From positions 1-20,757 of the IMG/VR virus record IMGVR_UViG_3300031578_000418: a stretch of 20,757 bases of DNA; one strand, given 5' to 3'. Positions 1 through 12,573 of this stretch are shown piece by piece. Each line of letters starts with the position of its first letter. Position 1 is the stretch's first letter. This stretch comes from a virus. A program made the translations under genes and the position numbers. Under the pieces are notes generated by a model. The model did not search any database. It saw only the letters and a program-made list of their open reading frames with translations, and was not told the origin of the DNA.

Positions 1-159
1 ATCGAACCTGACTATAAGAAAAATGCTCCTACCCATTGGGTGAATGGCTTTGGTATAGTTGAGCACCTTCCAGCAACGGGATTTTTTAATTTGTATACCA
101 TTATTATTATTGAAGGATCGTTTATGTGGAATGGGAAATATTATGGCAAACAACTTTAA
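1..159 (+). CDS. C-terminal end of an unidentified protein (5' end outside window)
   Basis: The frame is open from base 1 and ends at a TAA at 157-159, giving the last 52 residues of a plus-strand protein that begins outside the window. The visible end is rich in aromatic and hydrophobic residues: a WVNGFGIVEH segment, then FFNLYTIIIIEG and a final MWNGKYYGKQL. A beta-rich tail of the form 'HW.NGF.IVE...FN.Y.I.I..G.F.WNGK.Y' recalls the C-terminal end of phage calcineurin-like metallophosphoesterases. No catalytic residue is in view, so that assignment is only a guess. A strong hairpin terminator follows 31 bases after the stop. Confidence 0.6.
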   Translation: MEPDYKKNAPTHWVNGFGIVEHLPATGFFNLYTIIIIEGSFMWNGKYYGKQL

Positions 160-227: not shown

Positions 228-255
228 ACATCTCGAAAACTAGATCTGTCTCCAA

Positions 256-504
256 TTAGTATCTCATTGCCAGATAAAGTTCCGGTGGTTCATTGATTTG
301 TATGATTTCGATAATTTCGATTTCTTCAACATCATCCGAGGAAACTTCTACTGTCTGAACTGGAGCTCTATCTGGACGATTGTTGATCTCAGACTGTAAT
401 GCACCGGTCATACATATTAGGGCGACCATGAATAAAACTAGGAAAGTGATAGCTATCATTTTCCTTTTAGCATCATTAACTATATTTTTTTTCATTGCAA
501 ACAT
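256..504 (-). CDS. Small single-pass membrane protein with acidic tail
   Basis: An 82-residue protein of unknown function. A basic N-terminus (about residues 4-15, KKN and KRK) is followed by one hydrophobic segment at about residues 17-36 (IAITFLVLFMVALICMTGAL). This fits a type II signal anchor, or an uncleaved signal. The rest is hydrophilic, with an acidic, isoleucine-rich stretch around residues 55-70. The start at 504 is chosen because GGAGGTG lies five to six bases upstream; an ATG three codons further in would be badly spaced. It is the last gene of a minus-strand cassette. It is separated from the previous gene by a hairpin at 546-576, so it may be expressed at a lower level. No family was recognised. 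Its membrane placement matches the envelope character of the neighbouring prepilin-like gene. Confidence 0.7.
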   Translation of the reverse strand: MFAMKKNIVNDAKRKMIAITFLVLFMVALICMTGALQSEINNRPDRAPVQTVEVSSDDVEEIEIIEIIQINEPPELYLAMRY

Positions 505-585: not shown

Positions 586-1014
586 TTACTTTTCTGTTGA
601 ACCGTCTAAACCAATCGTTGCAATTGGCGGGGTCTTTGAGATCTTCTCATTCCAGAAGACCTGAATCTGATGACCCTTTTTTGGGTTGGCGATGATAATT
701 GACTTCATACCATTGCCGTCATTGATCGTCGGATAATAAATCACTGACTCCGGCGTTTGTACCTGATAGGTATGGAATTGATGAATCTGGTTTGGTGAAA
801 GACCCGGAAGGAAATCTGGAAGTCTGACGACCTTAAATGAGCCAAAGTTCATGGACTCAAGTGTATCATTAGATTCTTGAGCAGTTTCGTTCAATGCTCC
901 CATGAACATATGACATATTGCGCACTCACCCCTTACCTTTTTATTACCTTCTGATTGTATGGGTAATCCATGTGCAGCTCCACATTTATCACAGTAACTC
1001 AACATTTTAACCAT
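586..1014 (-). CDS. Zinc-ribbon protein of unknown function
   Basis: A 142-residue protein with two CxxC pairs near the N-terminus (Cys8, Cys11, Cys31, Cys34; CDKC and CAIC), the usual layout of a structural zinc ribbon. The remaining ~105 residues show no known motif. They contain a proline- and glutamine-rich centre (LPGLSPNQIHQFHTYQVQ) and beta-strand-like segments. The start at 1014 is preferred over an in-frame ATG at 1035 because GGGAGG lies five bases upstream of it. The ribosome-binding site lies inside the end of the upstream prepilin-like gene, and the two genes overlap by 8 bases, so translation is probably coupled. It could be a cytosolic partner or regulator of the cassette; nothing in the sequence shows which. 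Confidence 0.75.
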   Translation of the reverse strand: MVKMLSYCDKCGAAHGLPIQSEGNKKVRGECAICHMFMGALNETAQESNDTLESMNFGSFKVVRLPDFLPGLSPNQIHQFHTYQVQTPESVIYYPTINDGNGMKSIIIANPKKGHQIQVFWNEKISKTPPIATIGLDGSTEK

Positions 1015-1375
1015 TTGACGCCTCCCATTTTCCATAAGTGTTTTTGACAGACCTGATTCGTTTAAGATGAAATGCTTTATCCCTTATCATAATAATCCCT
1101 CCATCCTGATCTTTTGATTGCCAAACATAATCAAGGATTTTAAGATTATTATAAACTTCTTCATCCGAGGTCCACCCTACATCAAGTTTCAGATTTGTCC
1201 ATGCTTCCAACTCTTTTTCATTTAGACTTATAATTACAGATATAAGCACTGACTCTTCTGCCTTTATTGAAGTTCCTCCGATCACCTTGTACACACCGAT
1301 TGAAAGTATAACTCCCATGATCGCAAGAACAGCAATGATCTCAACCAGAGTAAACCCTTTTTGATTTCTCAACAT
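1007..1375 (-). CDS. Prepilin-like protein (type IV pilin/pseudopilin N-terminus)
   Basis: A 122-residue protein with a canonical class III (prepilin) signal. A short basic leader, MLRNQKG, is followed by FTLVE, i.e. Gly(-1), Phe(+1), Glu(+5). Then comes a ~20-residue hydrophobic helix (IIAVLAIMGVILSIGVYKV). Prepilin peptidase (PilD family) cuts after that glycine and methylates the phenylalanine. The ~90-residue remainder is a small globular domain with Trp, Asp and Gly residues spaced as in short minor pilins (LNEKELEAWTN, a KWEASNG end). It has no cysteine pair. AAGGAGGT lies only two bases from the ATG but five from the next codon, TTG, so the true start may be one codon later. No assembly ATPase, platform protein or peptidase gene is in the window, so host machinery would be needed. 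It lies between a 58-residue gene and the zinc-ribbon gene. Confidence 0.8.
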   Translation of the reverse strand: MLRNQKGFTLVEIIAVLAIMGVILSIGVYKVIGGTSIKAEESVLISVIISLNEKELEAWTNLKLDVGWTSDEEVYNNLKILDYVWQSKDQDGGIIMIRDKAFHLKRIRSVKNTYGKWEASNG

Positions 1376-1382
1376 TACCTCC

Positions 1383-1559
1383 TTATGCAGTTTGGGTCTC
1401 AATCGTTTCGGAATCGTTGATTGGGTGATACTTTGTGATTCCCCAACCATATTTTCCTAGCATGTCAACCACTGAAGCCATGCTTGTTATTACGGTTATC
1501 TCAGTTTCCCGAACTTCCCCAGTTGTAACGTTTTCACATTCAATCTTATATCTTTTCAT
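1383..1559 (-). CDS. Small protein of 58 residues, first gene of the cassette
   Basis: ATG at 1559 to TAA at 1383-1385 gives 58 residues: MKRYKIECEN at the start and SETIETQTA at the end. GGAGGTG lies five to six bases before the ATG, in a leader nearly identical to that of the gene at 256-504. The N-terminal half alternates charged and beta-branched residues (TGEVRETEITVITS), as in a small beta-sheet. A more mixed segment with GKYGWGITKYHP follows. There is no signal peptide and no known motif. The stop is 7 bases before the next start, so it forms an operon with the prepilin-like gene. The real frame and strong ribosome-binding site support expression; the function is unknown. Confidence 0.7.
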   Translation of the reverse strand: MKRYKIECENVTTGEVRETEITVITSMASVVDMLGKYGWGITKYHPINDSETIETQTA

Positions 1560-1733: not shown

Positions 1734-2531
1734 ATGACTTATAAAGATCAATTCGTAGCTGAAGTAAAATCAAATGGACGAATCCTTAGAGTTAAAGATG
1801 GAAGCGTCTACCTACCTTTTGGAAGCGAGTACACTATTCTACTAAAAAATCTAAACTCAAAAAGAGCATCTGTGAATATTTCGATTGATGGTGAAGATGT
1901 TTTAGATAATAGTAGTTTAATTCTCGACGCAAACTCATCAACAGAAATAGAAGGATTTCTTCGCGGAAATGTTGCACGTAATCGTTTTCGATTTATTAAT
2001 AAAACAAAACAGATTAGTGAGCATAGAGGCGATAGAGCAGATGATGGATTAGTTAGAATAGAATTTGCTTTTGAAAAACCGATACCTGAACCTCAAATTA
2101 AGAAGGTTATTGAGGAAGTTCATCATCACTATCATAATAGTCCATTTGTATATACTTATCATAGTGGGGTAGATTGGACTTATAATGATACTCTTAGATC
2201 TGGTTGTGAATCAATAAGTAGAAGTATGACGAATATGAGCAGCAATGTTACTATGGATTCTCTTGGAGTACAAAATATTTCTAATATCCCAAATATGGAT
2301 GAAGGAATAACTGTAAAGGGGTCTGAATGTAATCAACAGTTTAGTTATGCTTCTATTGGCGAACTAGAGGAATCTGCTGTTATTGTTATTCAGTTAAAAG
2401 GACTTGCTGAATCAGGTAGTCAGGTTTCAGAACCGATAACGGTTCAAAGAAAACTAACTTGTTCCTCTTGTGGAGTCAGGTCAAAATCATCATTCAAGTT
2501 CTGCCCCAATTGTGGAACATTTCTAGAATAA
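1734..2531 (+). CDS. Phage protein with beta-sandwich-like N-terminus and C-terminal zinc ribbon
   Basis: A 265-residue protein, AAAGGAGAT before the ATG. Residues ~12-90 look like a beta-rich domain: GSVYLPFGSEYTILLKNLNS, then an ISIDGEDVLD turn and an 'S-T-E-I-E-G-F' strand. This pattern is found in small phage proteins that offer glycine-rich edges and a jelly-roll-like fold. Residues 130-134 form a histidine cluster (HHHYH). A Ser/Asn-rich linker follows (~150-185), then a second conserved block (ITVKGSECNQQF, ~191). The protein ends in a clear zinc ribbon, CSSC at 243-246 and CPNC at 257-260. It is probably a structural or virion-associated protein, given the tail genes downstream, but no precise role can be assigned. 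A large hairpin and a new promoter-like element follow, so it may be its own transcription unit. Confidence 0.75.
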   Translation: MTYKDQFVAEVKSNGRILRVKDGSVYLPFGSEYTILLKNLNSKRASVNISIDGEDVLDNSSLILDANSSTEIEGFLRGNVARNRFRFINKTKQISEHRGDRADDGLVRIEFAFEKPIPEPQIKKVIEEVHHHYHNSPFVYTYHSGVDWTYNDTLRSGCESISRSMTNMSSNVTMDSLGVQNISNIPNMDEGITVKGSECNQQFSYASIGELEESAVIVIQLKGLAESGSQVSEPITVQRKLTCSSCGVRSKSSFKFCPNCGTFLE

Positions 2532-3536: not shown

Positions 3537-5501
3537 ATGGGACAAAACGTATCTCCGGGTGTATATACTAAAATTATCGACCTTTCACAATTCGTACAAG
3601 CGGTACCATCAACAATTGGTTTCATTTGTGCATTAACAGAGAAAGGAGAAGATAACACCCTAAAATTTATTGGCGGTAGAGCTGACTATATCGCCGAGTT
3701 CGGGGAACCGAACATTAGCACATATGGAAAAAATTACGGACAAGGCCCTTATTGCGCATATAACTATTTAGGAGAATCTGGAGCTCTTTATTTTATGAGA
3801 TGCCTTCCGGATGATGCAGCATACTCCAATATGAGAATAGATGCAACATTTGGAGCTACAGATACCACAGGAAGCATAGTAGTTACTTCTGTTGATACTT
3901 TAAATACTGTAACCGAAATTAAAACCAATCTATCTTTAGCTGCTGTTCCGCCAACATACCCAGTCTGCTTCTTATATCCAATAGGAAGAGGACAATGGTA
4001 TAATGGTCTCGGGGTTAGAATTACTGAAGTTGCTAATCCGACTCTTTGGGATCAATATATTATAGATATTTATGAGAGACAGTCAGATGGTGAAGATGAA
4101 ATTATTGAATCATTTGAAATTTCATTTGATCCTACCGCTAGGGATGGTGCTGGTGAGTCTCTTTGGATTGTTGATGTGTTGAACTTATATTCAGCAGTTC
4201 TTAGAGCTGATATGACACTAGCAAGTGGTGCATATAGTTCTGGGTATGATGCTGTTGTTAAAGTATATGATAAAAATATTGGTAATATTACTACAGTTAC
4301 AACTGCCGGGTCTGCATCAATTACAGATAGTAAACAAGATTTTGGAGACTGGGATACATCACCAGAAGTGGGTAATGCTGCTTATTCCATTTATGCAAAA
4401 GACGCAAAAGGCGTTGAAATTTGGGGTTGGTTAGGAGCATCCAGTGGAGTAGATGGAGAAACAGTTAACGTATTCAATGAAAGAGCATTAGCTACTGCCA
4501 TTCAAAGTTGGAATGGAAATATAACAGATTTTGATACAAATACAGAAGTTGAGTATAGGATTAAAGCTAATATCAGTACATTTGCAGAACCATTTGTTGG
4601 ATCAGTTCCAATTCCATTAAGAAAAGGAAGTGATGGAACTCTGTTAACTGGAACAGGTGATATTGATACTGTTGTAGCTACTCAAATATTAGCACAAGGT
4701 TATGCTGGGCTTCTTGATGATGCTGTATTAGATACAGAAAATATCTATTACTCAATGGTGTTTGATGCTGGATATCCAACTGATGTTAAGACACAAATCA
4801 GTACTCTTGTTCAAACAAGACGTGATTCTGTTGGTATTATTGACAATGGAGATAATCCATCATTTACTACATCATTGACAACAAGAAGAAATGTTCACAC
4901 ATTCAATACTTACTTCTTAGCACTTTATGAATCATATAGTAAAGTATTTGATATATTTACAGGCCAAGATATATGGTTCTCACCAGTATATCATATGTCT
5001 TATATTCTACCAAGAAATGATAATGTTGCAGAAATTTGGTTTGCAGCAGCTGGTTTCAATAGAGCTGCAATCGACACAATCAAAGAACTGAGATTTAATC
5101 CTCGTCTTGGAGAAAGAGATCAGATGTATCTCGCACAGTTAAATCCGATTGTTAAATTCAACCCTGGTTATGTTGTTTGGGGGCAGTTAACAACACAAGC
5201 GAGACCAAGTGCTCTGCAAGATTTAAATATTGTTAGACTTGTTTTATATGTTAAGAGAGCATTTGAGGAATTTTGTAGATTCTTTATATTTGAACAAAAT
5301 GATGAAATTACTTGGTCATCAGTTTCTACAAACTTAGTGGAGTTCTTAGAAGTAATTAAAAACAAACGTGGTCTGTATAGCTATGCAGTTGATGTTGGCG
5401 CAACAGACTATGAAAGAAAAACAAAGAGATTCCATGTTAATGTAACTTTAGAACCAACTAGAGTTGTAGAACAAATTGAGTTGAATTTCTTCATTAAATA
5501 A
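3537..5501 (+). CDS. gp18: Contractile tail sheath protein (T4 gp18-like)
   Basis: A 654-residue protein, close in length to T4 gp18 (659). It forms the contractile outer sheath that drives the tube through the host envelope. The N-terminus VSPGVYTKIIDLSQF is the usual sheath opening ('sPGVy..e.d.s'). The C-terminal quarter is diagnostic: WGQLTTQARPSALQDLNIVRL, then VLYVKRAFEEFCRFFIFEQND, and a terminal beta strand with RFHVNVTLEPTRVVEQIELNF, the segment that interlocks neighbouring subunits. The middle (~120-340) is a more variable, surface-type insertion. AGGAGGAAAACAGAT precedes the ATG. The 98-base gap upstream shows only this ribosome-binding site. The tube gene, which normally follows, is displaced to 8444 by a minus-strand cassette. 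Confidence 0.95.
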   Translation: MGQNVSPGVYTKIIDLSQFVQAVPSTIGFICALTEKGEDNTLKFIGGRADYIAEFGEPNISTYGKNYGQGPYCAYNYLGESGALYFMRCLPDDAAYSNMRIDATFGATDTTGSIVVTSVDTLNTVTEIKTNLSLAAVPPTYPVCFLYPIGRGQWYNGLGVRITEVANPTLWDQYIIDIYERQSDGEDEIIESFEISFDPTARDGAGESLWIVDVLNLYSAVLRADMTLASGAYSSGYDAVVKVYDKNIGNITTVTTAGSASITDSKQDFGDWDTSPEVGNAAYSIYAKDAKGVEIWGWLGASSGVDGETVNVFNERALATAIQSWNGNITDFDTNTEVEYRIKANISTFAEPFVGSVPIPLRKGSDGTLLTGTGDIDTVVATQILAQGYAGLLDDAVLDTENIYYSMVFDAGYPTDVKTQISTLVQTRRDSVGIIDNGDNPSFTTSLTTRRNVHTFNTYFLALYESYSKVFDIFTGQDIWFSPVYHMSYILPRNDNVAEIWFAAAGFNRAAIDTIKELRFNPRLGERDQMYLAQLNPIVKFNPGYVVWGQLTTQARPSALQDLNIVRLVLYVKRAFEEFCRFFIFEQNDEITWSSVSTNLVEFLEVIKNKRGLYSYAVDVGATDYERKTKRFHVNVTLEPTRVVEQIELNFFIK

Positions 5502-5556: not shown

Positions 5557-6036
5557 TTAGGGTGCTAAAGGAATTCCCAACGGAACAACAGATAGAGAAT
5601 GTTTCAATGATCCGTCAAACAACTTGGTTGTGTAGACGTTATAGATAAGAACATTCTTTTCTGCATCATAGCTTCTTGAAATTCTCATGACTTTTGTTCC
5701 TATTGACTTTCGGAAATGCCCAATATCATGATTGGTTTTCTTATTGATAATCTGTTTTCCATTTTCATCAACAGGAATCTTTCCAGTTAATCGACAAGCA
5801 ATTGATGTATTACTTGGATCCGAAAGCTGAAATCCTGTCGCAATTATGTGTGCAATATAAATGCTGACAAATGGATTTTCAGGATCATTAATCCGTATGG
5901 TTTCTAGATCATAGTTATTTGGGCCAATTGGGTCAACAGCCAAGAAACGATCAATTCTGACTGCTTTGACTTCGGCGAAGGTAGAGATTGGGATTAAGAA
6001 AGACATGAGTAGGGCTGCGATAATATATTTTTTCAT
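5557..6036 (-). CDS. creA: CreA-family exported protein
   Basis: A 159-residue protein. Residues 1-21 form a signal peptide (KK, hydrophobic IIAALLMSFLIPI, then STFA before E). The rest follows the bacterial CreA family: VDPIGPNN (~35), DPENPFVSIYI (~51-61), DPSNTSIACRLTGKI (73-87), then MRISRSYDAEKNVLIYNVYT (~117-136) and DGSLKHSLSVVP (~141-152). This matches the family's 'DPSdasIaCrq.GPI', 'FYDakRNtLvYlaYsdkl' and 'eGSpKNsisaVP'. CreA proteins are small periplasmic proteins of poorly known function. The usual first cysteine (in GVTC or NVTC) is replaced, leaving a single Cys81, so the family's likely disulfide is lost. Its ATG overlaps the stop of the upstream membrane-protein gene by four bases, so translation is coupled. 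Presence in a phage tail region is unusual. Confidence 0.85.
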   Translation of the reverse strand: MKKYIIAALLMSFLIPISTFAEVKAVRIDRFLAVDPIGPNNYDLETIRINDPENPFVSIYIAHIIATGFQLSDPSNTSIACRLTGKIPVDENGKQIINKKTNHDIGHFRKSIGTKVMRISRSYDAEKNVLIYNVYTTKLFDGSLKHSLSVVPLGIPLAP

Positions 6037-6410: not shown

Positions 6411-7430
6411 TTATAATTCTAATGGGCATTTGTCCTTTTGTTTTCGTAACATTCTCCGAAACTTTTTAAATGGTTTTGAATTGTTCCAGATCTCTTTAAT
6501 GTCTTTTTTTCCAATGGAAATTGCCCATTCTCCTTTGTTTGCAAAACTACATGGCATTAGTTTCATATCCGGAGTAATATATGCTGACATCCTTGCACCT
6601 TCACAAGTATCAATTGATAGTTGTTGAAGTTCGGTAGGAGTACTCTTTTTCAAAACGTGATTACAAAGGCAAGAATCCATCCCAACTTTAAATTTTGCTT
6701 TGGAGTTAAAAATAAGACTTGAGAAGACACCAAATTGATATTCAGTTGGCCTCATATCAATTAAGTTTTCCCCTGCTCCTGCTGGTTTGAATAGAAGAAA
6801 TATCACAGCATTAAGTCTATTAATGTCAACCAAAGTGTTTCTTCCAGTTGAATAACCTTGTACTTCCCATGGATTTCTTCCATATAGAATTTTTATAGCG
6901 TCTCCAAATGATCCTTGTGAGAAGATCATATGAATGTTAGTTTTAATTCCAGCATCCATAAACCTTTCAATAGCTTCATATGTAGTTGGAGTATGATAAT
7001 CGCTAACGGCTACGGCACCACACATTTTCGAGATTTCAATTTCGTCATCTGTTAAATCGATCCCGCTTGTCGTATAGTTTGGCATGACATTATTTTCTCG
7101 GGCGTATTCAATGATTTCTTTGAAGTTCTCATGTTTATTGGGATCACCTCTTCCTCCCAATGCAACTTGATTCGTGTGATGCTTCACTTGATCAACGATG
7201 CTTTTAAAATCTTCCAATTTCATGTTCGGATTGTTTTGATGTCCTTGGTAACAAAATGCACATTTATTTACACAAGTCCCCATTACCCCAATGTCTAATA
7301 ACGAGGGGAGCTGTAGTGAGAATGGATCTGGTTTTCCATTAGCTCCTCTCATCATCTCAAATCCTGACTGTGGATCGAAGAATATTTCGTAGTCATCATT
7401 GATAAAACATTTAATTTTTCTTTCACTCAT
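6411..7430 (-). CDS. Radical SAM enzyme with SPASM-like C-terminus
   Basis: A 339-residue protein. Cys53, Cys57 and Cys60 (CVNKCAFC) form the CxxxCxxC site that binds the 4Fe-4S cluster with S-adenosylmethionine. The following GGRGDPNKH (~92-100) fits the SAM-contacting region, and TTSGIDLTDDE (~120-130) and HTPTTYEAIERFMDAGIKTNIH (in ~146-167) fit later barrel strands. The C-terminal part has Cys254, Cys256, Cys276, Cys294 and Cys335, including CEGARMSAYITPDMKLMPCS. This is the pattern of a SPASM or related auxiliary-cluster domain, ending abruptly at CPLEL. Such enzymes often modify peptides or proteins. The start codon shares a base with the stop of the upstream acidic membrane protein, which makes that protein a candidate substrate or partner. 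The substrate is unknown. Confidence 0.85.
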   Translation of the reverse strand: MSERKIKCFINDDYEIFFDPQSGFEMMRGANGKPDPFSLQLPSLLDIGVMGTCVNKCAFCYQGHQNNPNMKLEDFKSIVDQVKHHTNQVALGGRGDPNKHENFKEIIEYARENNVMPNYTTSGIDLTDDEIEISKMCGAVAVSDYHTPTTYEAIERFMDAGIKTNIHMIFSQGSFGDAIKILYGRNPWEVQGYSTGRNTLVDINRLNAVIFLLFKPAGAGENLIDMRPTEYQFGVFSSLIFNSKAKFKVGMDSCLCNHVLKKSTPTELQQLSIDTCEGARMSAYITPDMKLMPCSFANKGEWAISIGKKDIKEIWNNSKPFKKFRRMLRKQKDKCPLEL

Positions 7431-7771
7431 TATAATTTGACTCCTTCTTCGGGTCCGTTCTCTGGTTTTGGTTGGTTAGTTTCTATCTCTGGGATCGGGG
7501 TCTTTTCTTTTTCTATTTTTTCATCTTCCCCTTCCTCTTGAGCGTCTTTATTGATTGCTTTTTCAAAAGACTCCTTTGCCTTTATAATTAGTTCTTTCAC
7601 TTCCGGTTTAATTTCTTCAATTGCCTCTTTCACTTCTTCGATGACCCCTTTATCCTTATCATGAATAACCACCTCTTTTTTATTAGCATCATCATCAAAA
7701 AATATATTGTAAAGAAAGATCAAAAAGAAAATTCCTGCCAAACTAATTCCGCCTCCTGAACTTTTACTCAC
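7430..7771 (-). CDS. Membrane-anchored acidic coiled-coil-like protein
   Basis: A 113-residue protein starting at GTG with AAAGGAGG six bases upstream. A short Ser/Gly-rich N-terminus (SKSSGGGIS) is followed by a hydrophobic segment at ~10-25 (LAGIFFLIFLYNIFF). Then comes a strongly charged helix-prone stretch (~40-85, repeated EEVKEAIEEI/EVKELIIKAKES patterns) and a Pro/Glu-rich tail ending EGVKL. This fits a single-pass anchored protein with a soluble coiled-coil domain. It is the first gene of the four-gene minus-strand cassette, and its stop overlaps the radical SAM start (TAATG). No family was identified. It could be a partner, scaffold or target of the radical SAM enzyme; the sequence does not show which. 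Confidence 0.7.
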   Translation of the reverse strand: MSKSSGGGISLAGIFFLIFLYNIFFDDDANKKEVVIHDKDKGVIEEVKEAIEEIKPEVKELIIKAKESFEKAINKDAQEEGEDEKIEKEKTPIPEIETNQPKPENGPEEGVKL

Positions 7772-8443: not shown

Positions 8444-9184
8444 ATGAAAAGTTCATTTTCTGAAGTACAGAACAATTTTTATACCAGAAAACTAGGCGGA
8501 ACATCTATTGGTGTTGCTGATCCTTATGTAACTGGGTATCACTTTATTTGGTTTGATAAGATTCCAAACGGACTAGCAAAAGCAATCCAATTAAATAATT
8601 CTGGTATTGCTGGCGGAAGTGGTATTCAAGATGAGCAAGAAATAAAGAAAGTATTAGCAGCAACATGCCTTTCTGTTACACCACCTGGAGGAACTCTAAA
8701 TAAAGTTGAGTACACTGGATTAGGCGGAGTAAAGTGGGCAGTTCCTGGTAATATTGATTATGGTAATACAGTATCTGTAAAATTCTTTGAATTTAATAAG
8801 ACTCCAATCCTGGATATTATGCACGGTTGGGTTAAATTAATTAGAGATTATAGAACTGGTGTAGCTTCTGCATCTCTAGAAGACGGAGCAGAAGGTATTG
8901 GTTATTCAAAAAGAACATATGCTGGTTTAATGTATTACTGGACTACAGCTCCTGATGGTGTTACAGTTGAATATTATGCATGCTATGATGGCATGTTTCC
9001 AGCAAAAGATCCACAGGATTTATTCACAAGTGATGTAGAAACTGTTGGAAGACTGGACGTTGAAATTGAGTTTAACGTCGATTATGCTTGGCATGAACCT
9101 TGGGTCTTCAAAAAATGCCAGGGATTTGCTCAAGGCATGTTCAAGGAAAGTAAAAGCAAAGTTCTAGCTTATAATAACTCATAA
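8444..9184 (+). CDS. gp19: Tail tube protein (T4 gp19-like)
   Basis: A 246-residue protein, longer than T4 gp19 (163). It stacks in rings to make the inner tail tube through which DNA passes. Diagnostic features lie in the middle: SVTPPGGTLNKVEYTGLGG (~77-95), KWAVPGNIDYGNTVSVKFFEF, then PILDIMHGWVKLIRDYR. This is the gp19-type fold with an aromatic 'F.e......i..W...iRD.r' block. The C-terminal half holds a second strand set (YYWTTAPDGVTVEYYACYDG and VGRLDVEIEFNVDYAWHEP). GGAGG lies 13 bases before the ATG. It is followed at once by cysteine-rich genes, not by the portal gene as in T4. Confidence 0.85.
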   Translation: MKSSFSEVQNNFYTRKLGGTSIGVADPYVTGYHFIWFDKIPNGLAKAIQLNNSGIAGGSGIQDEQEIKKVLAATCLSVTPPGGTLNKVEYTGLGGVKWAVPGNIDYGNTVSVKFFEFNKTPILDIMHGWVKLIRDYRTGVASASLEDGAEGIGYSKRTYAGLMYYWTTAPDGVTVEYYACYDGMFPAKDPQDLFTSDVETVGRLDVEIEFNVDYAWHEPWVFKKCQGFAQGMFKESKSKVLAYNNS

Positions 9185-9196
9185 GGATTCTATAAT

Positions 9197-9691
9197 ATGA
9201 TAAACCTTAGATTAGTTGCCTATTTGATGGTTTATGAATCTAATCTTAGTAAACCAGCTAAATTACAGCTGGTTAACTTTTTGAAAGAAGCAACTGAACC
9301 ACAGATTAAGTTATTTGTAGTAGAGGGAAGAGTTGGTAATGTTTCCCAGAAGCAGGAATTGGAGCTAGATTCTATATTAGAGGTAGCTCCAATTGCTGCC
9401 TACTATGCTTCTTCAATTGTATGGGGTGCAGCAATTGGGTTAGCTATGAAAGCATTTAATAAATACTTTGGAGAAGCAGCCAAAGCATGTGCTGAAAAGA
9501 GAGGGAGAGAAAAGAAACTGTGTATGAATGTTTATACAGTGAGAGCTTATCAACAAAAAATTACTGTCCTTAAAACGGAAGCTGGAAAATGTAATCAAAC
9601 GGCTGATCCAAAAAAATGTAGTGAAAAATTTATTAAAAATATAAAAGTTATTGAAAAACAATTGATAAAAATAAGATCAAAAATGCTTTAA
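9197..9691 (+). CDS. Cysteine-module protein with helical N-domain (module copy A)
   Basis: A 164-residue protein of unknown function. Residues ~8-47 form a small helical domain (NLSKPAKLQLVNFLKEATEP) shared with the next gene. Residues ~65-90 are hydrophobic (IAAYYASSIVWGAAIGLAM), perhaps a membrane or core helix. Then comes a basic cysteine region: Cys98 and Cys109, spaced 10 apart, followed by Cys132 and Cys141 in a KC-x8-C pair, and a long amphipathic helix. The same plan occurs twice in the protein at 11434-12573, but there each of the first two positions is a CX3C pair. Here the outer cysteines are Ala94 and Tyr113. AAGGA lies nine bases before the ATG. Its place between tube and baseplate genes suggests a tail component or assembly factor. 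Confidence 0.7.
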   Translation: MINLRLVAYLMVYESNLSKPAKLQLVNFLKEATEPQIKLFVVEGRVGNVSQKQELELDSILEVAPIAAYYASSIVWGAAIGLAMKAFNKYFGEAAKACAEKRGREKKLCMNVYTVRAYQQKITVLKTEAGKCNQTADPKKCSEKFIKNIKVIEKQLIKIRSKML

Positions 9692-9704: not shown

Positions 9705-9917
9705 ATGAGAAGAGACTTAGAACTAAAATTATTTGCTGCTGAATCAGTTGCGGGTTCTCGACTATCAAAAGCAGCAAAACTTCAACTGATGAATTTCATC
9801 GAACATGATGCAAGCGATGCACAAATAAAAGCTCTTATCATGGATGGAAAAGTAACACAGTTGGATGAGTTAGCAGAGCAAGTTGTACATGATAGATGGA
9901 CTGCTTTAATATCTTAA
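9705..9917 (+). CDS. Stand-alone copy of the helical domain of the preceding protein
   Basis: A 70-residue protein, AAGGAG six bases before the ATG. Residues ~19-50 (RLSKAAKLQLMNFIEHDASD and QIKALIMDGKV) match residues ~17-46 of the preceding protein: LSK-AKLQL-NF, then QIK and a G-V end. Unlike that protein it has no hydrophobic segment and no cysteine; it ends with an acidic, helix-prone tail (QLDELAEQVVHDRWTALIS). It may be a soluble partner or a duplicate that lost its C-terminal module. No remnant of the cysteine module is seen after the stop. Function unknown. Confidence 0.65.
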   Translation: MRRDLELKLFAAESVAGSRLSKAAKLQLMNFIEHDASDAQIKALIMDGKVTQLDELAEQVVHDRWTALIS

Positions 9918-11433: not shown

Positions 11434-12573
11434 ATGGATAAAAAATTAATAACTGAAGTTGGTAAACAATTTCTTTTAGAGTTTGCAATTGGGGATCAAT
11501 TTCTTAAAGAAAATCTTACATTTAAAGAGCATGTTAAACTTTGCGGTGAAATAATGACCTTGGATTATGAAGGTGTAGCGACAGTATTCTCTGAAGACAT
11601 TAGAGAATTTGAAGGTAAGTTTTCTAAGTTTTTAAAATACGGACTTGCTGGAGTAGCCGGAGCAACATTAGGTCTTAAAGCAGCAGGGTTAAAAGTTGGT
11701 TTACTCAAAGCTCCCGGTCTTGCTATGTTTGCTTTATATTTATTCAGAAAAGCAACAGACCCATGTGAAAGAGCATGCTTTAGAACTATGCCGATGTCTG
11801 CGAAAAGGGATGCGTGTAAACTTGAATGTAAAGTTGATGCTGCTCGGCAACTTGTAAATGAGCTCAGATCTGAAATAGCAAAATGTAGACAATTTACTAA
11901 TCCTCCAAAATGTGAAAAGAAATTAATGAAGCAGTATATAAGATGGAGCAAAAAACTTCAAGAATTACTGATAAAATTGAGAGCTGTTAAAGCAGGTCAA
12001 GTTCAAAAAGTACGTAAAATAAGAGGCAAAGAACTTAGTAAAAGAGCAAACGCATTGTCAGATAGCGCCAATATTTCAACTTCAAGACTTGCTAAATTAA
12101 TATCTGAGAGTGAAGAAGTGAGAACCAGATTAACATTCAAAGAGCATTTATATCTATATAATAGTGTTAAAAAAAAAGTAATTGAAGAAGAACTGAAAGC
12201 TCCAAAGACTAAACCAATTACTCAAAAAATACTATCAGTTGGTCTTGTAACAGCAGCTGCAGTTATTCCATTGCCTGGTTTAGTTTTAGCAATGGTTCAT
12301 TTAACTGATGCAAATATATATAAGTGTGCAGTTAAATGCGCTAAATTAAAAAATGAAGAAGATAAAGTTTATTGTCACAAACGATGTAAACTTATGGGAA
12401 TTCAATGGACAATAAGTTATATTGAAGGTGAAAGAAGAAAATGTTCTGGCAAAAAGAAGGGTGTAATAAAATGTGAGGAGAAACTTCGTAAACTTGTTAG
12501 AAAATGGAAACTTAAAGAGATTGAAGCTAAAATTAGACTTGATACTTATAAAAGGAAAAAAGGTATTAGATAA
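11434..12573 (+). CDS. Internally duplicated cysteine-rich protein (module copies B1 and B2)
   Basis: A 379-residue, very basic protein made of two repeats. Each has a helical segment with LTFKEH (28-33 and 233-238), a hydrophobic stretch (~68-104 and ~266-290), a twin CX3C motif, a KC-x8/9-KC pair and a long Lys/Arg-rich helix. B1 cysteines are 111, 115, 128, 132, 151 and 160 (CX3C-X12-CX3C); B2 cysteines are 298, 302, 314, 318, 337 and 347 (CX3C-X11-CX3C). A related single module is in the protein at 9197. Twin CX3C in a helical hairpin normally gives two parallel disulfides, or a metal site. It lies between gp25 and a neck/baseplate-type gene, so a tail role is likely. A membrane-active or tube-internal role is possible. 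GGGAG precedes the ATG; the stop overlaps the next ATG (TAATG). Confidence 0.7.
   Translation: MDKKLITEVGKQFLLEFAIGDQFLKENLTFKEHVKLCGEIMTLDYEGVATVFSEDIREFEGKFSKFLKYGLAGVAGATLGLKAAGLKVGLLKAPGLAMFALYLFRKATDPCERACFRTMPMSAKRDACKLECKVDAARQLVNELRSEIAKCRQFTNPPKCEKKLMKQYIRWSKKLQELLIKLRAVKAGQVQKVRKIRGKELSKRANALSDSANISTSRLAKLISESEEVRTRLTFKEHLYLYNSVKKKVIEEELKAPKTKPITQKILSVGLVTAAAVIPLPGLVLAMVHLTDANIYKCAVKCAKLKNEEDKVYCHKRCKLMGIQWTISYIEGERRKCSGKKKGVIKCEEKLRKLVRKWKLKEIEAKIRLDTYKRKKGIR

Follow-up and report, generated by a model that had tools for sequence, protein, structure and literature searches.

The window analyzed here is the whole of a 20,757-base stretch of DNA from an IMG/VR viral record. Among its products are a contractile tail sheath (PF17482; phrog_19666 at 5e-70) and two baseplate components, a hub and a wedge. 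The nearest named relatives of the sheath and the baseplate hub belong to AR9, PBS1, phiR1-37 and other jumbo phages, at just 21-30% identity. A scan of viral contigs detected more than 160 relatives of the sheath, and therefore the clade is a large, uncultured one. Judged from these sequences, the window represents part of the genome of an uncultured jumbo phage that is distantly AR9/PBS1/phiR1-37-like; a non-viral contig as the source was considered and rejected. When 84,980 genomes of bacteria and archaea were scanned with the CreA-family protein encoded in the window and, separately, with the PilX-like protein described below, neither had a cellular relative, and no host could be assigned.

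The CreA-family protein (PF05981, 78.5 bits) is encoded at 5557-6036 on the minus strand and is kept in many relatives within the phage clade. A radical SAM/SPASM protein (PF04055 and PF13186; 6411-7430, minus strand), possibly a modifier of peptides or proteins, is encoded near the sheath in most relatives. Adjoining genes at 9197-9691, 9705-9917 and 11434-12573 have similar openings and appear to encode related phage proteins; two of them have a cysteine motif of the kind CA..RG..KK.C / CERACFR..C...C.

As the preliminary description had stated, a gene for a prepilin-like protein is embedded in this tail-gene region (Table 1). It lies in an operon of its own, divergently oriented and equipped with strong ribosome-binding sites, in which the genes for a 58-aa protein, the prepilin, a zinc-ribbon protein and a short membrane protein follow each other on the minus strand. 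The zinc-ribbon gene likely starts at ATG 1014, which is preceded by GGAGGCG and gives an 8-nt overlap with the prepilin stop. Promoter and terminator scans did no better than shuffles. In relatives, a short membrane protein often precedes pilX, a gene for a second pilin that is discussed below; the similarity is weak in some cases (25-31% in L008, L010 and L090; 18% in L071), and in L071 the protein precedes the prepilin instead of pilX. In one relative, L003, an HNH-endonuclease-like ORF (7095-7682, minus strand; a weak match that stays under its cut-off) separates the flank gene from the pilin operon and is possibly a homing endonuclease.

Table 1. Features of the pilin operon and its surroundings (window positions, except where a related contig is named).
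Feature	Position	Strand	Remark
Metallophosphoesterase gene, 3' end	1..159	+	Convergent; follows pilX in relatives, so gene order is conserved, pilX loss aside
Remnant of lost pilX-like gene	240..260	-	ACTAATTGGAGACAGATCTAG (TNWRQI*), last codons
82-aa protein, one predicted membrane helix	256..504	-	Similar short protein directly upstream of pilX in most pilX-bearing relatives
142-aa zinc-ribbon protein	586..1014 (ORF 586-1035)	-	Not specific to pilin loci, since relatives that lack the prepilin have it too
Prepilin gene, 122 aa (121 aa if TTG 1372 is the start)	1007..1375	-	Class III signal, predicted alpha-1 and small beta-sheet
Prepilin leader (M)LRNQKG	1355..1375	-	Cleavage predicted after Gly; PF07963 match spans residues 3-26
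Phe+1 codon; Glu+5 codon	1352-1354; 1340-1342	-	Prepilin signal
58-aa protein, first gene of the operon	1383..1559	-	Homologues ahead of pilin genes in L003 and L006
265-aa zinc-ribbon protein	1734..2531	+	Conserved flank; landmark for the pilin slot in relatives
Contractile tail sheath	3537..5501	+	Myovirus marker
Spine-only prepilins	L097 1345-1581; L100 1333-1596; L099 1333-1584 (83 aa)	-

The N-terminus of the 122-aa ORF reads MLRNQKG|FTLVEIIAVLAIMGVILSIGVYKV and contains all of the elements of a class III signal, namely a short charged leader, Gly at -1, Phe at +1, Glu at +5 and about 20 hydrophobic residues. Pfam N_methyl (PF07963) matches the protein with 32.7 bits (E 4.7e-8; cut-off 21.2) and NCBIfam TIGR02532 with 31.3 bits (cut-off 16.3). 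With just a few dozen genes in the window, scores of this size are far beyond chance; the possibility of a chance motif was rejected, and the earlier claim of a phage-encoded prepilin at this position was borne out. The start codon is probably TTG at 1372 and not ATG at 1375, which would make the leader MRNQKG, because the Shine-Dalgarno sequence AAGGAGG crowds the ATG and is better spaced to the TTG and because the ORF of the L003 homologue opens at TTG. Apart from the general signal model, no NCBIfam pilin model scored above its cut-off, and the C-terminal domain matched no Pfam family of its own.

The profile search against pilin families and the fold prediction that had been proposed as checks both point to the pilin superfamily. 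A profile built from the prepilin family matches the sequences of solved structures, including geopilin (7.8e-11), MshA and PilA5. In an AlphaFold2 model based on the family alignment (pLDDT 78.6), residues 10-65 form a single 56-residue helix, the alpha-1 spine whose absence would have counted against the assignment, and this is followed by a short helix and a four-stranded antiparallel sheet. Thus, the model has the long N-terminal alpha-1 and antiparallel sheet of the superfamily. When the model was compared with 862 chains by VIA-align, the top four were all pilins or pseudopilins, namely PilJ (Z 5.8), an Xcp pseudopilus chain (5.6) and PilA5 (5.5 and 5.4), modest values, with the next unrelated row at Z 4.3. 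Foldseek searches of PDB and BFVD with the small pilin returned nothing significant, and small helix-dominated models are hard for Foldseek. Except for Foldseek, all of the available sequence and structure tests mark the product as a pilin precursor, and its membership in the type IV pilin superfamily, as judged from sequence and model, is well supported.

The same comparisons bear on whether the protein is a T2SS pseudopilin, one that would join the pseudopilus of the host T2SS and change secretion. There are weak NCBIfam matches to the N-termini of GspH and GspG, and the chain of the XcpGHIJK pseudopilus is the second-best VIA row. However, the scores for GspG (22.0 of 88.85 bits) and GspH (22.1 of 80) are far below their cut-offs and lie mostly over the signal and helix; GspJ reaches 13.2 of 64.85 bits. 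In addition, the companion pilin encoded by relatives combines PilX_N with a ComZ-like solenoid, both of them features of type IV pili (T4P). We regard the T2SS as an improbable destination for the protein.

Homologues with the same neighbours occur in other phages, in the same slot. Nine of them, with 31-96% identity to the prepilin in the window, were aligned with it, and Gly-1, Phe+1 and Glu+5 are invariant in all ten sequences; loss of this site in homologues would have spoken against the preliminary description. All ten also match N_methyl, and the C-terminal part of the alignment has more invariant residues, for example W59, R106 and W117. A comparison with the L003 homologue gives dN 0.16 and dS 0.84, or dN/dS of about 0.2, which indicates that the window prepilin is under purifying selection. 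Could the gene be passenger host DNA that has no function in the phage? Its mosaic presence and the loss of pilX in the window would fit. However, many phages have the gene in this slot, with identities of 31-96% and a dN/dS of about 0.2, and a prepilin is present in all five of the long uncultured relatives. These selection and conservation data largely refute the idea, and we give it almost no credence.

The pilins diverge much faster than the tail sheath and out of step with it. For example, L053 and L059 are 87% identical in the sheath and 35% in the prepilin, while L006 and L071 are 69% and 48% identical, respectively. For PilX, the corresponding sheath and PilX values are 80% and 37% for L071/L010 and 67% and 71% for L002/L010. 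Such sheath-discordant divergence fits allele exchange, as in the host-facing modules of phages.

In relatives, the divergent prepilin operon often also encodes a second pilin of about 360 aa. L003 has a 363-aa version, encoded after the membrane-protein gene; L002, whose sheath is 99% identical to that of the window, has the first 157 residues of the PilX-like protein and then the contig ends. The L003 companion contains a PilX_N domain (41.6 bits; cut-off 25.5), and all ten aligned companions match PilX_N (E <= 0.01). All ten lack Glu at +5. GspK, the tip pseudopilin of the T2SS, also lacks this residue. In the model of the companion (pLDDT 87), alpha-1 (3-65) and a pilin sheet are followed by a beta-solenoid (160-343) and a final strand (354-362), so that the solenoid is predicted to be inserted between the penultimate and last pilin strands. 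In structural comparisons the solenoid matched ice-binding solenoids (Z 13-15), the protein as a whole matched ComZ (Z 10.3), and PilA, a minor pilin of S. sanguinis, matched over the pilin portion (Z 9.7).

The window itself has lost this gene. After the membrane-protein gene only ACTAATTGGAGACAGATCTAG (TNWRQI*) is left, at 260-240, and then comes the convergent metallophosphoesterase gene as in relatives; the remnant matches the TSWRQI end of the intact pilX in L003, L006 and L007. A deletion is the simplest reading, and misassembly close to the end of the metagenomic contig may be an alternative cause. At 9100-9280 (compare window 230-270), L002 shares the short 3' junction of the window; beyond it, part of the membrane-protein gene is duplicated, and the intact beginning of pilX follows. 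This arrangement looks like recombination between variants with and without pilX.

The distribution of the two genes is mosaic. With the 265-aa flank gene as the landmark, 13 of 27 slots, the window included, hold a prepilin gene, a PilX-like gene or both; this is not an unbiased rate because some of the loci were chosen via PilX. Some relatives have the prepilin without pilX, some have pilX without a recognized prepilin in the slot and some have neither, and therefore the pair is not obligatory. PilX-like genes are also present in four phage-like contigs (L011-L014) that are without the sheath or baseplate genes of the window. Each of the five long uncultured contigs (101-244 kb) encodes exactly one N_methyl protein; two of these contigs were found via the sheath and three via an SbcD-like gene that adjoins the prepilin in the first two, which introduces some bias, and the latter three have no detectable relative of the window's sheath. 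The prepilins of three relatives (L097, L099 and L100) are spine-only versions that, at 78-87 aa, consist of hardly more than the helix, and in L097 and L100 the gene is directly upstream of the SbcD-like nuclease gene. Runs of small proteins beginning MK(I/L/F)K(S/T/A/I)DFVTNSSS, members of a family that recurs in tandem-like fashion within each run, are also encoded upstream of the SbcD-like gene (L097 1571-2678, minus strand; L114 2433-2714; L115 1774-3004).

The preliminary description had considered prepilins to be rare in phage genomes, and this view calls for correction. Several PHROGs families, phrog_3433 ('pilin'), 10597, 13280, 27437, 11596 and 11263, have the same N-terminal prepilin signature as the window protein, with matches mainly over the signal and helix, and every long uncultured relative tested has a prepilin. 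A tblastn search of 50,697 phage records with the prepilin gave no match, nor did one with a 42-aa consensus N-terminus, for which low-complexity filtering may hide matches. The consensus result is therefore not evidence that phages lack prepilins, and PHROGs shows that they have them. Since PHROGs already holds prepilin N-termini, one of them named 'pilin', the window prepilin alone adds to known phage proteins. The enlarged two-pilin cassette, rather than a phage prepilin as such, is what is unusual. Its ComZ-like, putative tip pilin has no PHROG match, a BLAST search of the 50,697 phage records gave chance matches only and none that was credible, and we found no description of phage-encoded pilins in the open-access literature searched.

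One could also imagine that the class III signal simply anchors a virion or lysis factor in the membrane and that the protein never enters a filament. The location among tail genes would be consistent with this, as would a 267-aa protein of L127 (1078-1881, minus strand), in which the prepilin motif lies mid-protein after a membrane and coiled-coil-like part; this N-terminal part weakly resembles Rz-like spanins, and the protein is either an odd fusion or has a misplaced start. However, the prepilin is encoded in its own divergent operon with strong ribosome-binding sites, the invariance of Gly, Phe and Glu would be needless for a mere anchor, and in relatives the same operon encodes a second pilin of a different subfamily. 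We rate a pure anchor as a slim prospect.

If the protein enters a filament, the question is which machine would build it. The claim that no assembly machinery is nearby was extended to relatives; the window's own record is a 20.8-kb fragment. No Peptidase_A24 (PilD) or T2SSE (PilB) match was above cut-off in 17 related records, five of them of 101-244 kb, and no T2SSF (PilC) match was above cut-off in those five long records; controls were detected. In G004, G028 and G029, the T2SSE, T2SSF and Peptidase_A24 models gave weak matches (22.9 bits at most, below cut-offs), and these were rejected as machinery. With PilD, PilB and PilC absent from the related records searched, a complete phage-borne T4P or T2SS was not found, and therefore any processing and assembly must come from the host. 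The prepilin would most plausibly serve as a subunit of the host's T4P or T2SS, and the PilX/ComZ-like companion found in relatives favours T4P.

We consider the best explanation to be that the protein is a true phage pilin, from an operon that makes two pilins, and that the host T4P assembles them as minor or tip pilins; we would put this at about an even chance. The full operon would supply the 122-aa pilin with Glu+5 and the approximately 360-aa ComZ/PilX-like pilin that lacks Glu+5 and has an inserted beta-solenoid. After insertion of the two in the inner membrane, the prepilin peptidase of the host would cleave and N-methylate them, and the host's T4P apparatus would build them in as minor pilins. 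The tip cap, which might bind DNA, would be the PilX/ComZ-like protein, and the small pilin would be the next subunit, linking the cap to the host major pilin. The phage tip would then replace or compete with the host tip complex and alter the binding or the extension and retraction of the pilus, and the phage would likely benefit because pilus-dependent rival phages are shut out or because attachment of the infected cell is changed. A shift in the ratio of minor to major pilins is reported to alter T4P dynamics (PMC13249403), and other ways in which phages act on T4P to achieve exclusion are known (PMC11436027). Because the tip pilin is lost, the lone pilin of the window phage would have to serve as a minor subunit or else compete with the minor pilins of the host. 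Several points count against this explanation: the presence of T4P in the host is assumed; the window phage is without the tip pilin; the pair is not obligatory; and the small pilin has no significant Foldseek match and modest VIA Z values.

The chief rival is that the small pilin acts as a poison. The T4P or T2SS machine of the host would take it up, the filament would stall or be capped, and the cell would become non-piliated or secretion-deficient. The spine-only versions would poison best, the window phage retains the prepilin after the loss of the tip pilin, and machinery is absent from the phages searched. However, a folded and conserved C-terminal domain under purifying selection, together with a 360-aa tip-type companion, suggests a working subunit. 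Short pilins can also still build filaments, as Geobacter PilA-N, which the prepilin family profile matches, does in some bacteria. A poison is therefore unlikely in our judgment, though it deserves to be taken seriously. A bolder form of the preferred explanation, host T4P fitted with phage minor or tip pilins, is that jumbo phages re-tip the pili. They would contribute a pilin that acts as a linker and, as the cap, a ComZ-like adhesin or receptor, so that the pili of the infected cell end in a tip chosen by the virus, the tip alleles being swapped among phages like receptor-binding proteins; this we offer tentatively, as possible rather than probable.

The prepilin and pilX would be a defined gene pair for asking whether lytic viruses remodel the surface of their host during infection, and the many natural pilin alleles would be a set of exchangeable tip modules for the study of minor pilins.

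In conclusion, the phage pilins can be placed beside several known systems. The closest named sheath and baseplate-hub relatives, the AR9/PBS1/phiR1-37 jumbo phages, share only 21-30% identity with the window phage, and none of the six isolate jumbo phage genomes searched, AR9 and phiR1-37 included, encodes an N_methyl protein. Type IV pilins with N_methyl, such as Geobacter PilA-N, Thermus PilA5 and MshA, have the class III signal, Glu+5, alpha-1 spine and small beta-sheet in common with the window prepilin; however, the latter is encoded by a phage in which assembly genes were not found. ComZ, the competence tip pilin of Thermus thermophilus and a proposed tip-located DNA receptor, has a solenoid at the same insertion point as the companion pilin, and FfIBP is the closest fold for both solenoids (PMC6561018). 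Like ComZ and the PilX_N minor pilins, the companion has a PilX_N N-terminus, no Glu+5 and, in the model, an ice-binding-like solenoid between the last two strands, but its solenoid has about 185 residues compared with approximately 380 in ComZ, and the companion is phage-encoded and deleted in the window. Finally, phage inhibitors of T4P, such as those that act on PilB, or the Pf4 protein, probably share with the pilins the host T4P as target and superinfection exclusion as benefit (PMC11436027). These inhibitors hit the machine or its expression, whereas a phage of the window type would supply a subunit itself. If this is true, pilus subunits supplied by a phage, including a tip-type pilin with a solenoid, would be a different way to take over a surface machine than blocking it with an inhibitor.
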